NCBI GenBank assembly: GCA_028820655.1
Contig: JAPPIK010000040.1
Coordinates: 1 to 64,000 of the forward strand
Reading direction: 5' to 3'
From: Candidatus Poribacteria bacterium
GTDB taxonomy: Bacteria; Poribacteria; WGA-4E; JAJDTR01
Length of the DNA stretch: 64,000 nucleotides
In this document: piece after piece, positions 58,625-64,000 of the stretch
How the letters are laid out: each line of letters opens with the position of its first letter
Position numbering within the stretch: position 1 is the stretch's first letter
The notes under the pieces: generated by a model
The model's database searches: none
What the model was told of the DNA's origin: nothing
What the model saw: the letters and a program-made list of their open reading frames with translations, nothing else
Position numbers and translations under genes: made by a program

Positions 58625-59275
58625 TTAGCCTTTGTCCTCCCGCAGATAGGGAAGAAGCAACACTCTTAAGTTGCGTTGTGCTTGAAAGAGGTGCGCCTTG
58701 ATGGTTCCGGTCGACCGCCCCATTTTCCGACCAATTTCTTTCAACGGGAGATCCTCTCGATAACGGAGAATGAAAACCTCTCTCTGCTTTGGCGACAACT
58801 GCATAACCGCTCGGCGCAGATAAGCGTAAAACTCCTCATTTTCAACAGCCTTGGAAGGCGCCGACGGGTGTCGATTGGCGACATTGCCGTAGAATACATC
58901 ATCGGACACAGGATCATCGCTAATCACGCGGTGTTTTGACCGATGACGCATATAATCAATACAGCGGTTTATGGTGATGCGATAGAGCCAACTGTAAAAT
59001 TGGGAAGCTTTCTTAAAGTTGCCAAGACCCTGATATGCCTTGAGAAAAACGTCCTGAGTGACATCAAGTGCGTCTTCGGGATTTGTGATGATTGCGCGGA
59101 CAACCCCGTGAATTCGACTGCGATAGCGAAGATACAGGAGATTAAAGGCTTCCGAATCCCCCTCGTGGAATCGCTCGACGAGTTGGGCATCCTCCAGTTC
59201 AGTTTCAGGCACAAATTTGGAGTCGTCCATCGGAACAAAGTTAGCGTGAAATTGAAACCCTTGCCGAGTCTGCAT
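58625..59275 (-). CDS. RNA polymerase sigma factor, ECF
   Basis: A 216-residue sigma-70 family protein with region 2 (LLYLRYRSRIHGVVRAIITNPEDALDVTQDVFLKAY, in parts; FYSWLYRITINRCIDYMRHR) and region 4 (LSPKQREVFILRYREDLPLKEIGRKMGRSTGTIKAHLFQA). No anti-sigma gene is beside it; the next gene in its direction, 48 bases away, encodes the CotH protein. ATG 59275 is preceded by GGGAG; an in-frame ATG at 59230 is a weaker choice. It lies about 2.7 kb upstream of the second ECF operon on the same strand. Confidence 0.93.
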   Translation of the reverse strand: MQTRQGFQFHANFVPMDDSKFVPETELEDAQLVERFHEGDSEAFNLLYLRYRSRIHGVVRAIITNPEDALDVTQDVFLKAYQGLGNFKKASQFYSWLYRITINRCIDYMRHRSKHRVISDDPVSDDVFYGNVANRHPSAPSKAVENEEFYAYLRRAVMQLSPKQREVFILRYREDLPLKEIGRKMGRSTGTIKAHLFQAQRNLRVLLLPYLREDKG

Positions 59276-59604: not shown

Positions 59605-60478
59605 TACAGAAACAGTATTAAGATTCCTCGTGCAGTCTTTGACCGGTCAGTTTACGTTTCAGCCGATTTCCTGCAGTATCCGGGTTGGGAGATCCCTCCT
59701 ACCCTTTCGGGTTTCGGTTGATTCGCACCTTCGAAGTGTCGAAGCATGCTCCTTAGGGTGCACCCCCGGAGCGGGAGATGCACGCATCGGGGATCGGGAA
59801 TGTCTCCTACAACAATCGGATGATTGCGCCGTTGCAATGAAAACGGGTGCCAACGGAGCGCCGATTTCTGCGGCATGTTGGCATTATTTTGAAACGGAGG
59901 TTCCTTTGGTAGCGCGGGTTCCAGGGGATCTCAATGCCAACAAAATGCCAATAGAAAATAAAACTTCAAGGATGACGAATTGTCATGGTACATAGAATAT
60001 GCCACACAACTGTTAAGTTTTCAATTCAAAAATTGACACGATACAGGTACAGTTTGCGGTTTGTTGACAGTGGATGTCGGCTGCAGTCGGCGTGTCTGCC
60101 AAGCGTTCAACGCTTCTCTAAGGATATCGGAGCATTATGTCCACACAGGGGAAAGCAATACAACCGAAAGTTGATAGCAAGAAACAGTTTTCGCCGCACC
60201 CAAGTAACTGACGCCGCCAGGGTTTCCGGCATGACGAAAAGCGTGTATCAGGTGCAACGTCGGAACCATGAGAAGTCGATGTTGGTCAAACTGAAGGATT
60301 TATTGACAGTGCGACAAACTTTGTAACGGCGATGACCAGCACGATTAGGGTACCTTCACAGAGCTATGCCGGAGGATTTCCGAACTTACCGATTCCAATC
60401 ACATGCCCCAGATCTTTGGCGAAAAGGACTGAATTTTATAAAAATCCGCGGAGAATGCAGTTTTTTTAGCATTTTGTC

Positions 60479-60517
60479 TTGACAATCCATATTCGAGAAT
60501 GCTAGTATTTTAGCATT
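60479..60517 (+). promoter_or_regulatory. Promoter with overlapping palindromic operator upstream of blaI
   Basis: TTGACA (60479-60484), 18 bases, TAGTAT (60503-60508). Across the -10 box lies a perfect inverted repeat AATGCTA-GTATTT-TAGCATT (60498-60517), and a further TAGCATT half-site lies at 60467-60473, ahead of the -35. This is the layout of a repressor-controlled promoter. The next gene in this direction is blaI, about 520 bases on, so the BlaI-like protein is the obvious candidate repressor. This remains inference. Confidence 0.55.
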
Positions 60518-60546
60518 GATGAACATCTGATGTCAATTTCACCCTC

Positions 60547-60689
60547 TCAAGTAACACTTTTTCAAAGCCAGTCTCAGAGAAGGAAATCTGTACCACAATC
60601 TGTTAGATTGTGATCGCAAACTGACAGTTTGCGGTACGAGAGTGTTACGTGTTGAAAGAATTATTCCGAGAGGGATAATGGCGCGCTAT
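60547..60689 (+). repeat. Nested-palindrome tandem repeat, unit 1
   Basis: A unit of about 142 bases. Its outer arms are GTAACACT and AGTGTTAC. Inside lie GTACC / GGTAC arms enclosing two hairpins: CAATCT-GTT-AGATTG and GCAAACT-n3-AGTTTGC. It ends in a block with GAAAGAATTATTCCGA and GGCGCGCT. Confidence 0.8.
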
Positions 60690-60832
60690 CAAGTAACACT
60701 TTCTCAAAGCCAGTCTCAAAGAAGGAAATCTGTACCACAATCTGTTAGATTGTGATCGGCAAACTAACAGTTTGCGGTACAAGAGTGTTACGTGCTGAAA
60801 GAATTATTCCGACAGGGATGATGGCGTGCTCT
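60690..60832 (+). repeat. Nested-palindrome tandem repeat, unit 2
   Basis: Almost identical to unit 1, with one extra G between the two hairpins and a handful of changes. Period 142 bases (GTAACACT at 60551 and 60693). Confidence 0.85.
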
Positions 60833-61020
60833 CGATTAACATTTCATCCAAAGTAAGTGGTAGAGCGAAAAACGAATTCCGAAATGAGGGAATCGTATCG
60901 TTAAGCATACTGGCGTTCTCCGTGCCACATTCTGTTAGATTGTGATCGGCAAACTAACAGTTTGCGGTACGAGAGTGTTACGTGTTGAAAGAATCATTCC
61001 GACAGGGAAAATGGCGTGCT
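60833..61020 (+). repeat. Nested-palindrome tandem repeat, unit 3 (interrupted)
   Basis: The left end is diverged (ATTAACATTTCATCCAAAG against AGTAACACTTTCTCAAAG). About 50 bases of other sequence follow, and then from 60921 the double hairpin and right end are nearly identical to units 1 and 2. It ends 16 bases before the blaI start, next to its ribosome-binding site. Confidence 0.75.
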
Positions 61021-61036: not shown

Positions 61037-61435
61037 ATGCCTACGACAAAATTACCCCACGATTTGAGCCGCCGCGAGCGACAGATTATGGACATCGTCT
61101 ATCGACGAGGCCGCGCTTCGGTGGCGGATGTATTGAACGGCCTAGCCGATCCCCCTTCCTATTCGGCGGTCAGGGCATTGATGCGAATCTTGGAAGAGAA
61201 GGGATATCTCAGGCATGAAAAAGAGGGTCTGCGATACATCTACACCCCGATTCACCCGCGTCAGAATGCCGGCGAGGCGGCGCTCAGCCGGGTGTTCCAG
61301 ACCTTTTTTGACAATTCAATCGAGAAAACGGTCGCCGCGCTGTTAAACGTCTCGGACACAATGCTTTCCGCGGAAGAATCCGACCGGTTGGCTCAACTCA
61401 TCGAACAGGCCAAGGAAAGAGAAGAAAAACCGTGA
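61037..61435 (+). CDS. BlaI/MecI/CopY-family transcriptional repressor
   Basis: A 132-residue winged-helix regulator: LSRRERQIMDIVYRRGRASVADVLNGL at the N-terminus, SYSAVRALMRILEEKGYLRHEKEGLRYIYTP in the wing region, and a helical dimerisation part. Proteins of this family are cleaved when a partner M56 receptor is activated. The gene next downstream encodes such a receptor-like protein. ATG 61037 follows AAGGAAAGGAAAA; the open frame begins at 61016. Three structured repeats lie immediately upstream. Confidence 0.93.
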   Translation: MPTTKLPHDLSRRERQIMDIVYRRGRASVADVLNGLADPPSYSAVRALMRILEEKGYLRHEKEGLRYIYTPIHPRQNAGEAALSRVFQTFFDNSIEKTVAALLNVSDTMLSAEESDRLAQLIEQAKEREEKP

Positions 61436-61564
61436 TGCAATCCATATGTGCCCTCAAACGTCTGACATAATTACAGCCCGAAAAGAAACGACGAATGAAA
61501 AGAAAGAAGAATGGAGAATCCGTCCCCTTTGCTTTCTTCCAATTTACCGTTATTGCAAAATTAA

Positions 61565-61590
61565 CCTGAGGATTGCTTAAATTCCTCAGG
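61565..61590. promoter_or_regulatory. Hairpin between blaI and the M56 gene
   Basis: CCTGAGGA, a ten-base loop and TCCTCAGG form a perfect eight-base stem about 28 bases before the M56 start. Only a few T's follow, after some distance, so it may be a weak terminator, an attenuator or an operator that sets the ratio of repressor to receptor. Confidence 0.5.
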
Positions 61591-61617
61591 AGCGTACATT
61601 TTAAGGAGGAATACCCC

Positions 61618-64000
61618 ATGATGTCCTTCATGTCGCTCTACGGAACTTCCGAACATTCGATAGGTTGGCTGGCAATATTACTTGATGCGTCCATAAAAAG
61701 CGTCATTGTGCTCGCACTTGCGGCGGGGTTGAACCTCGGGCTAAAACGCAGTTCCGCGGCGTTTCGTCACCTGCTCTGGTTACTGGCGGTTATGAGTTGC
61801 CTTTGTCTACCCGTCATCTCCGCAACCTTGCCAAGCTGGCGATTACCGCTTGGCGCACAGGCGGTTCCCTCGGCTAAAGCGGTCCCCGGTTTTGAAGGGA
61901 ATCCCTCGGCGCAATTATCATCAACAAATCGTCAGGCGGTGACCCGGCACGCGCAGAATCCTCAAATAGACGTTAACCATAAAGCGGTGGGATCGCCGGA
62001 CACGGTTCATGAGGCATTCGCCACCTCCGCTTCGCAGGCATCGGGTTGGTGGAATCAGTCTACCCTTTGGACATATGTTGGAATTGCCTGGGGCACCGGC
62101 ATGTTGGTTGTGCTGCTGCCGTTGTTAACGGGTTTAATCGGGATTTGGAGAATCGCACGACGAAGCCGGCGCATCACGGATGGCTCGCTGCTGGCGTTGG
62201 CTCGCGAACTCGCAGGGCAAGTCGGGATTAAACGCGGTATCAGGCTGTTGCAGGGCGAGACTGATATGCCGCTGACGTGGGGCATCCTTCGTCCCCGCGT
62301 CTTGATGCCCGCCAATGCGGAGAACTGGCCGACAGACCAACAGCGCGCCGTTCTGCTGCACGAATTCTCACACATCCAGCGGTGGGATTGGCTGACGCAG
62401 ACGATCGCCCAGATCTCCTGCGCCATTTATTGGTTCAATCCGCTAGTATGGGTCGCCGACCACCGGATGCGCCTCGAGCGTGAACGCGCCTGCGACGACC
62501 ACGTCCTGACCAATGGTTGCCGCGCGACAGACTATGCGTCACAACTGCTTGAGATCGCACGAACGTCGCGTCCGCCAGCTTTCGCTGCGCGCGCCGCGGT
62601 AGCGATGGCGCAACCCTCATGGATCGAGAAGCGACTGCGGGTCATTCTCGCCACAGACCGCAATCGAAATCCGGTGACCAAAGCGGTGGTTGCCGTTAGC
62701 GTGCTGGCTGTCGCTTGTCTCGTGCTGCTGATCGGCGTTATGCGTCCCGCGGAAGCGGTCGAGGAGGAAGAGTTGCTGCAGCAGATTCGCGAAGCCGCGC
62801 TATGGTGGCCCCAGCCGGCTGAATTGCCGCCGAGCGACGCGGAAATAGACGCCTTAATGGGACAGTTCGCGAAACGGATCAAAAACGGATTCAAACTCAG
62901 TGAACGGTTTCTCGACGCCTATCCCGAAAGCGAGGAGCGCGACGAAGTATGGATGTACAATGTCCGGTTTCTTTTGGGCCTTCGTAAACAGGAGCAAGCC
63001 AACGGCGAGATTGAAGCGTTCTTGAAGGCGTTTCCCGAATCGAAACACGCACCGGATGTATGGTCGATCAAGATTGAGTTGCTTGAGCGGGAGGGAAAAT
63101 TCAAGGAAGCGCTGGCGCAGATAGACAAGATGGATCACACGGTACCTCTTCCGGCCGTATATAAGCGGAAGGCGCAAATATACTCGCACATGGAGGATTC
63201 GGAAAAAGCCGCCGAATACCGGCTGCGCGCCGCGGAATCGACGTTGGGCAAACCCGCTCCGGATTTCACGCTGAAAGACATCAACGGCGAATCCGTCTCA
63301 CTGGCGGATTTTCGCGGCAAGGTCGTGCTGCTCAACTTCTGGGCGACGTGGAGCGAGCCGTGCATGTACGGGTTGCCGGCGCTGAAGGCAATCTATGAAA
63401 GATTCAAGCACAATCCCGATTTTGCGCTCATCGGCATCAGTTGGGATTTCAAAGACGAAACCGTGTCGAAATTCACTGCGGACAACGAGATGCCGTGGAT
63501 TCACATCCGCGATAGCAAAGATACGCGAGCCACATTCAACGTAAGAGCAATTCCGCACTTCACGGTCATCGGCAAGAGCGGGCTGATACACGAAAACAGT
63601 ATGAGCGGCGGCGGCGGGCTCGACGCGGTGATTGCTTCCCTGCTTGCCGATGCGCCGGGGGAACCGGATCAGTCAAACATCGCCAAACTTCACGAGTTGC
63701 GCGGGGATCTGCACGAAATACGCGGCGAAAGGGAGCAGGCTCTCACGGAATACGAGCGAGCCTTGCGTCTTCAACCGAAAAACATGGGACTGGTTTCCGC
63801 GATCAGAGATTGGTATGAACGCAGCGCCGCGGAAGGGCACAGCCAACCTGAAAAAGCGCTTGCATTTCACGACGAGTCGCTGCCGAAGCTGGTGGAGGCA
63901 AATCGGTATAAAACGCGCGCAAGTTTCGGAATGGGCTATACCGCCTTAAAATTTGCCGAGTTTTATGACGAACGAGGCAACGCCGAAAAATGCTGGCAGG
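61618..64000 (+). CDS. BlaR1-type M56 metalloprotease fused to TPR-like and thioredoxin domains (incomplete at window end)
   Basis: The frame is open from ATG 61618 (AAGGAGGA upstream) to the window end, 794 codons. The N-terminal part has hydrophobic helices and the M56 protease: HEFSH at about 248-252, and ERACDD near 289. A further membrane helix lies near 357-377. A helical, TPR-like region follows (about 400-535). A TlpA/AhpC-type thioredoxin domain (about 540-670) comes next: GKPAPDFTLKDINGE, VVLLNFWATWSEPC and the cis-Pro loop AIPHF with Pro646. The usual CxxC is SxxC (Ser579, Cys582). TPR-like repeats resume after it. It pairs with the BlaI-like gene. A redox- or envelope-sensing receptor is suggested. 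Confidence 0.88.
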   Translation, partial: MMSFMSLYGTSEHSIGWLAILLDASIKSVIVLALAAGLNLGLKRSSAAFRHLLWLLAVMSCLCLPVISATLPSWRLPLGAQAVPSAKAVPGFEGNPSAQLSSTNRQAVTRHAQNPQIDVNHKAVGSPDTVHEAFATSASQASGWWNQSTLWTYVGIAWGTGMLVVLLPLLTGLIGIWRIARRSRRITDGSLLALARELAGQVGIKRGIRLLQGETDMPLTWGILRPRVLMPANAENWPTDQQRAVLLHEFSHIQRWDWLTQTIAQISCAIYWFNPLVWVADHRMRLERERACDDHVLTNGCRATDYASQLLEIARTSRPPAFAARAAVAMAQPSWIEKRLRVILATDRNRNPVTKAVVAVSVLAVACLVLLIGVMRPAEAVEEEELLQQIREAALWWPQPAELPPSDAEIDALMGQFAKRIKNGFKLSERFLDAYPESEERDEVWMYNVRFLLGLRKQEQANGEIEAFLKAFPESKHAPDVWSIKIELLEREGKFKEALAQIDKMDHTVPLPAVYKRKAQIYSHMEDSEKAAEYRLRAAESTLGKPAPDFTLKDINGESVSLADFRGKVVLLNFWATWSEPCMYGLPALKAIYERFKHNPDFALIGISWDFKDETVSKFTADNEMPWIHIRDSKDTRATFNVRAIPHFTVIGKSGLIHENSMSGGGGLDAVIASLLADAPGEPDQSNIAKLHELRGDLHEIRGEREQALTEYERALRLQPKNMGLVSAIRDWYERSAAEGHSQPEKALAFHDESLPKLVEANRYKTRASFGMGYTALKFAEFYDERGNAEKCWQ

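Follow-up and report, generated by a model that had tools for sequence, protein, structure and literature searches.

BlaI/BlaR1 is the textbook antibiotic-sensing pair of repressor and protease, and is known mainly from beta-lactam resistance. In Staphylococcus aureus, BlaI is a direct substrate of BlaR1, whose cytoplasmic protease is driven by the binding of beta-lactams to the outer sensor (PMC9834060). The BlaR1 sensor resembles class D beta-lactamases (PMC7593790), and BlaI of Bacillus licheniformis binds three operators (PMC3305447). Here we describe a BlaI gene and an M56 receptor gene in a 64,000-nucleotide stretch of a Candidatus Poribacteria genome (the window; contig C34:1-64000 of a 5.88-Mb genome whose nearest named relatives in an alignment scan are Candidatus Poribacteria metagenome-assembled genomes). 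With moderate confidence we read them as a BlaI/BlaR1-like repressor-protease pair that senses extracytoplasmic proteins rather than beta-lactams. Judged by sequence, the two products are properly named a BlaI family protein and a member of peptidase family M56; the receptor qualifies neither as a BlaR1 beta-lactam receptor nor as an active HtrA protease, nor, in the window copy, as an active thioredoxin. A literature search returned papers on the BlaR1 mechanism, but none that joined M56 receptors with thioredoxin domains.

The gene pair and its membrane protease

The two genes and the receptor domains that lie inside the window are as follows.

61037-61435, + strand: blaI-type repressor gene (Penicillinase_R winged helix; PF03965, E 3.1e-26)
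61618-64000, + strand: M56 receptor gene, residues 1-794 of 1069 inside the window (open reading frame)
61618-62742, + strand: four transmembrane helices and M56 metalloprotease domain (PF05569, hydropathy, BlaR1 alignment, orthologue model)
62770-63237, + strand: TPR-like helical segment, residues 385-540 (weak TPR matches; all-helical in the orthologue model)
63238-63612, + strand: ResA/TlpA-type thioredoxin fold, residues 541-665, with WSEPC (AhpC-TSA match, ResA alignment of the orthologue model)
63613-64000, + strand: C-terminal TPR-like segment, continuing to about residue 869 past the window (PF13428 and model helices)

The repressor scores 92.4 bits against PF03965 in a profile search (cut-off 22.6) and also matches the DNA-binding domain of the penicillinase repressor (PDB 1p6r, E 1.8e-4); AAGGAAAGG stands immediately upstream of its ATG at 61037. 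The receptor frame opens at ATG 61618 and runs for 1069 codons to C34:64827 (stop codon C34:64825-64827), and the window end at 64000 truncates it at residue 794, 827 bases before it finishes. Residues 20-343 form the M56 domain (PF05569, 130 bits, cut-off 31), with HEFSH at 62359-62373 and, by alignment to S. aureus BlaR1, E289 and D293 retained. Hydropathy places membrane helices at residues 18-36, 52-70, 162-180 and 357-375, the four-helix pattern of BlaR1, so that the marks of peptidase family M56 (PF05569, HExxH, a downstream Glu and four membrane helices) are all present. Because the full protein overruns the window, a structure model was made for the orthologue L036 (77% identity), and its residues 17-338 align to BlaR1 (8exs) with Z 20.0 and a root-mean-square deviation (rmsd) of 3.8 A over 251 residues. 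The first-pass annotation, drawn from the letters alone, had paired BlaI with a BlaR1-type M56 protease and had ordered the receptor as M56, membrane helix, TPR, TlpA-like thioredoxin with an SxxC motif, and TPR; the profile matches (92 bits for PF03965, 130 bits for PF05569), the metalloprotease residues, hydropathy and the orthologue model bear out both.

A frameshift or assembly join of two genes between about 62800 and 63250, which that annotation had named as one way it could be wrong, was ruled out. The frame there has no stop and no frameshift, and since the entire frame is kept in two other genomes, at 77% (same genus) and 58% identity, the receptor is not two joined genes.

The pair resembles BlaI-BlaR1 and MecI-MecR1 of staphylococci and Bacillus licheniformis in its winged-helix BlaI, in an HExxH M56 protease within a cytoplasmic domain between helices 3 and 4, in an ectodomain after helix 4, and in having several operators, here candidate ones, at the promoter. 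It is unlike them in that the repressor gene comes first, the candidate operator is ATGCTAAAnnTTTAGCAT, no adjacent beta-lactamase or penicillin-binding protein gene was seen, and the penicillin-binding sensor is replaced by an ectodomain of TPR, thioredoxin, TPR and HtrA folds. Could the receptor nevertheless be a true beta-lactam receptor with a disguised sensor? The BlaI-M56 pairing and a partial match to the NCBIfam model blaR1_generic would suit one, but that match reaches 114 bits against a cut-off of 400 and is confined to the M56 part, a Pfam search at E up to 1 detected no penicillin-binding (transpeptidase/class D) domain in the receptor, and its C-terminal half is explained by the TPR, thioredoxin and HtrA folds. 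We consider such a receptor extremely improbable.

A TPR, thioredoxin and HtrA-fold ectodomain

After the M56 part the receptor continues with TPR-like helices, a ResA/TlpA thioredoxin fold, further TPR and an HtrA-fold domain. The thioredoxin domain matches AhpC-TSA (E 1.7e-18, residues 544-658), and residues 545-679 of the L036 model align to ResA with Z 20.7 and rmsd 1.6 A over 134 residues. It thus shares with the oxidoreductases ResA, TlpA and StoA the fold, the motif position and the expected extracytoplasmic location, and is unlike them in being part of a protease receptor and, in the window copy, in the replacement of its first cysteine. PF13428 matches residues 691-723, where the orthologue model has helices. 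Extension past 64000, which the first-pass annotation had recommended, followed a single reading frame to C34:64827 and added more TPR-like helices and, at residues 870-1069, the HtrA fold, a domain outside the part that annotation had in view. Residues 870-1069 alone show a weak likeness to trypsin/HtrA in profile searches; a profile built from seven relatives matches mycobacterial PepD (E 8e-6) and plant Deg1 (E 5e-5), and a separate model of the region matches DegP (Z 15.7, rmsd 3.2 A, 158 residues). In the alignment of seven members neither the catalytic His nor the catalytic Ser of the HtrA triad is conserved at its place. With both residues absent in every member read, we interpret the domain as a pseudoprotease, alike to HtrA, DegP and DegS (S1C) proteases in fold and unlike them in its lack of catalytic residues, in that no PDZ domain was seen, and in being part of a receptor.

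All receptor domains of the window copy are under purifying selection: against the same-genus orthologue, dN/dS is 0.13 for the M56 core, 0.24 for the thioredoxin domain, 0.22 for the HtrA-like domain and 0.25 for the whole protein. This selection bears on the idea of a decaying system, in which duplicated receptors drift to pseudogenes and both the SxxC motif and the lost HtrA triad are mere decay. Decay is visible in the neighbouring copies, where a stop and a frameshift interrupt the C-terminal domain of the tandem copy P0002 and the second M56 copy at contig C55 is likewise disrupted by an internal stop and a frameshift. However, each pair has an intact first copy, the window copy is constrained in every domain, and the promoter dyads are kept in the same-genus relative, which makes decay a very unlikely account of the window receptor.

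The one-cysteine motif is private to the window copy

The thioredoxin motif of the window copy reads W-S(579)-E-P-C(582), with the Ser codon at 63352-63354 and the Cys codon at 63361-63363. The same-genus orthologue (77%) has WCEPC, the 58% orthologue WCGPC and the tandem paralogue at C34:64980-67478 TCGPC; codon 579 is AGC in the window copy and TGC or TGT in these relatives, AGC being one base from TGC. Across 29 Poribacterial M56-linked thioredoxin domains, 17 have CxxC and 12 lack one or both cysteines, four with a single Cys (SxxC twice, YxxC and CxxS) and eight with neither. A tree built on the M56 part places the window copy among three CxxC sequences, and the CxxC, one-Cys and no-Cys states switch at least eight times across the family. 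One whole lineage, with both C55 copies of the window's genome among its members, has lost both cysteines. From these comparisons the missing cysteine is a recent one-base change private to the window copy and not a functional feature of the family. SxxC as a conserved signature, which the first-pass annotation had taken for a design feature, was accordingly dropped: the orthologues and the tandem paralogue still have CxxC, a single base separates the two states, and elsewhere both cysteines are gone. The intact CxxC of the relatives, which that annotation had also named as a way it could be wrong, removes the significance of SxxC and leaves the architecture unaffected. The suggestion that a single resolving cysteine forms a mixed disulphide with a signal molecule also appears unlikely, because the C-terminal Cys of a thioredoxin CxxC pair is normally buried and poorly nucleophilic, and it is this one that remains.

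The same survey bears on whether the receptor is a redox sensor, its thioredoxin domain being chemically active through its cysteine or cysteines and signalling thiol-disulphide state across the membrane. The domain is ResA-like, CxxC is intact in the closest orthologues, the tandem copy and more than half of the sensor domains, two extracytoplasmic cysteines (C792 and C1027) are common to the three nearest orthologues, and the candidate operator described below also precedes thioredoxin genes. On the other hand, the window copy lacks the nucleophilic cysteine, and members that lack both, a loss that occurred several times, still have the thioredoxin domain, the BlaI partner and the operator. 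We therefore judge redox sensing unlikely for this receptor; the persistence of the thioredoxin domain, although its chemistry changes from lineage to lineage, is best explained if it serves as a binding module. What stands of the earlier proposal is its broader part: an M56 receptor with TPR and thioredoxin modules in place of a penicillin-binding sensor may reasonably be expected to respond to redox state or partner proteins rather than beta-lactams, only not with the one-cysteine motif as its design.

The CxxS form, which is the substrate-trapping form of such motifs, occurs naturally in L131. Stand-alone thioredoxin-fold neighbours with a conserved one-cysteine WNSFC or WNGFC motif were observed in eight genomes, with genes at the following positions.

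L116:1403-2470: stand-alone WNSFC/WNGFC thioredoxin gene
L130:2441-3511: stand-alone WNSFC/WNGFC thioredoxin gene
L131:2252-3439: stand-alone WNSFC/WNGFC thioredoxin gene
L132:4219-5412: stand-alone WNSFC/WNGFC thioredoxin gene
L133:9788-10852: stand-alone WNSFC/WNGFC thioredoxin gene
L135:4158-5345: stand-alone WNSFC/WNGFC thioredoxin gene

As far as the motifs themselves tell, the conserved single-cysteine pattern is that of these proteins and not of the window copy.

A candidate operator shared by BlaI, thioredoxin and transporter genes

The promoter region of the BlaI operon, whose candidate operators are absent from the first-pass annotation, contains three elements.

60455-60472, + strand: degenerate distal operator-like dyad ATGCAGTTTTTTTAGCAT, 2 mismatches to ATGCTAN6TAGCAT, upstream of the -35
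60479-60508, + strand: sigma-70-type promoter TTGACA-N18-TAGTAT of the BlaI operon (consensus scan; TTGACA kept between dyads in orthologous promoters)
60499-60516, + strand: main candidate BlaI operator ATGCTAGTATTTTAGCAT, over the -10 (perfect ATGCTAN6TAGCAT)

The distal dyad lies 44 bp before the main dyad, a spacing shared with some 20 further BlaI promoters in the family, and the same-genus orthologue has ATGCTGTTATTTTAGCAT at the distal position within the same promoter layout. The second BlaI locus of the window's genome has the variant dyad ATGCTAAAATATTCGCAC. Family-wide the dyad is ATGCTAAAnnTTTAGCAT, usually in two copies 42-44 bp apart around TTGACA with the second over the -10, and a de novo dyad search upstream of BlaI genes recovered TGCTAA-n4-TTAGCA in 21 loci. 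Classical BlaI operators are of the TACAnnTGTA type, for which no consistent site was found upstream of BlaI in this clade. Since two dyads were found in the window alone with two mismatches allowed, against 1.5 expected, the match there is not beyond chance, and it is the recurrence across the family, with the same-genus layout, that makes the case for an operator. Three other near-matches in the window's own genome were taken as chance (4 against 15 for the reversed-pattern control).

The strict pattern ATGCTAANNNNTTAGCAT occurs at 54 sites in 30 of 85 Poribacteria genomes and its reversed control at none in all of them. Genomes with this M56 clade have it in 25 of 29 cases, compared with 5 of 56 without the clade (Fisher p 1.1e-12, a value that overstates independence, as the genomes are related). 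Among 52 sites that were read, 23 precede BlaI, 14 thioredoxin genes and 5 ABC-2 permease genes (42/52); the remaining 10 are unassigned, several of them at contig ends. Isolated strict sites away from BlaI, thioredoxin and ABC-2 genes were seen in G004 (three: L197, L198 and L199), in G001 C20 (L207, upstream of an ECF sigma-WD40 fusion gene) and in G059. On the minus strand of the window, a divergent TTGACA-N18-TAAAAT promoter-like site at 60507-60536 overlaps the main operator, and beyond it no clear gene appears before the ECF sigma gene at 58625-59275.

In family f2 of the Poribacteria, pairs of ABC-2 permease genes stand under the same operator, and in the window's genome an ABC transporter and a GntR-type regulator (named from sequence) are divergent from the second BlaI locus. 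Both would fit an envelope-damage or antimicrobial-peptide response, in which the receptor senses attack on wall or membrane and an ABC-2 transporter is the main output, as in peptide-detoxification systems. We find this quite improbable, as the window locus has no linked transporter, the operator stands before thioredoxin genes no less often than before transporter genes, and no known peptide-sensing domain was found in the receptor.

Some of the operator-linked thioredoxin genes are ECF sigma factor/thioredoxin fusions. Two such fusions near or under an operator (L193:7183-9285 and L192:8301-10088) have a C-terminal thioredoxin fold and no membrane helix by hydropathy.

Between the promoter and blaI lies one further feature.

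60548-61020, + strand: three copies of a ~141-bp dispersed palindromic repeat

The repeat has 86 matches genome-wide, and its three copies here give blaI a leader of ~520 bp; as far as known, it has no part in the mechanism.

The family in Poribacteria and beyond

M56 genes of this clade are present in 29 of 85 Poribacterial genomes, and wherever the DNA before a clade-A M56 gene was available, a BlaI gene immediately precedes it. Four architectures were found: the window type, M56-TPR-thioredoxin-TPR-HtrA; in family f2, M56-TPR-thioredoxin with the thioredoxin fold at the C-terminus; M56 with two thioredoxin domains, of which the second has CxxC and the first is dead (L031, L121); and M56-HtrA without thioredoxin (L032, L035). 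One to four TPR-thioredoxin genes often follow directly downstream in f2 (L129, L133, L116), and at least one of their products has a signal-peptide-like N-terminus by hydropathy.

In a search for M56-linked thioredoxin outside Poribacteria (about 80 loci plus 20 and 59 genomes), the matches listed include at least two Planctomycetota cases. These two genomes of the phylum (L156, L157) resemble the window type in an adjoining upstream BlaI, M56 in front and a TlpA-type thioredoxin at the end, and differ in their linker domains and intact CxxC. Since their M56 and thioredoxin parts are joined through carboxypeptidase-regulatory repeats (CarboxypepD_reg), this is probably a separate fusion, and the combination probably arose more than once. 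A second Poribacterial BlaI-M56 clade (L136-L151) has open reading frames of 590-1470 amino acids in which no thioredoxin was found, and a different recurring upstream box near TATTACTACGTATTTAGA, with a TAATAnTATTA dyad in 13 loci. CopY/TcrY repressors likewise belong to the BlaI family; the repressor P0004 has a partial CopY_TcrY match at 51.6 bits, below the cut-off of 122, and its partner is an M56 protease.

A proposed signalling route

By analogy with BlaI/BlaR1 we infer that the Poribacterial pair works in the same manner, signalling while it regulates its own expression. At rest, BlaI would occupy both dyads at its own promoter, which lie on either side of the -35, the second over the -10. 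Four helices would anchor the receptor in the cytoplasmic membrane, with its M56 protease in the cytoplasm and all that follows helix 4 on the outer side, where the array of TPR, thioredoxin fold, TPR and HtrA pseudoprotease may bind exported or thiol proteins without catalysis. Ligand binding would change the membrane part, activate M56, lead to the cutting of BlaI and derepress the operon. The window BlaI has LLN-V near the place of the S. aureus BlaI cleavage site (N101-F102); most relatives do not. In f2 the same type of repressor would also control thioredoxin genes, ECF-sigma/thioredoxin fusions among them, and ABC-2 permeases. Both folds, HtrA and TlpA, typify the cell envelope and protein quality control, so our first guess is that the signal is one of folding or thiol state.

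Several observations weigh against sensing of extracytoplasmic proteins by a non-catalytic array. The CxxC retained by 17 of 29 sensor thioredoxin domains leaves room for redox chemistry in part of the family, and the perfect ATGCTAN6TAGCAT occurs only once in the 5.88-Mb genome, at the blaI promoter. The full-length L036 model is of moderate confidence (mean predicted local distance difference test, pLDDT, 67.6), as is that of the HtrA-like region (mean pLDDT 62.7, built from four sequences), and the tandem M56 paralogue P0002 (CGPC; C34:64980-68148) has an HtrA-like tail broken by a stop and a frameshift.

More tentatively, we propose a BlaI regulon of Poribacteria unrelated to beta-lactams, in which a pseudoenzyme ectodomain of thioredoxin and HtrA folds, paralogous to the thioredoxins under its control, might monitor exported proteins for their folding or thiol state and induce thioredoxin, ECF-sigma/thioredoxin and ABC-2 permease operons. 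On this view the BlaI/BlaR1 chassis would be fitted with an unrelated sensor built of pseudoenzymes, and its candidate operator is well enough defined for regulon prediction in uncultured bacteria. As in BlaR1 and MecR1, where the sensor domain is akin to the kind of protein whose genes are controlled, the sensor would be paralogous to products of the genes that it controls, and the locus opens a direct route to what M56 receptors may sense besides penicillin.

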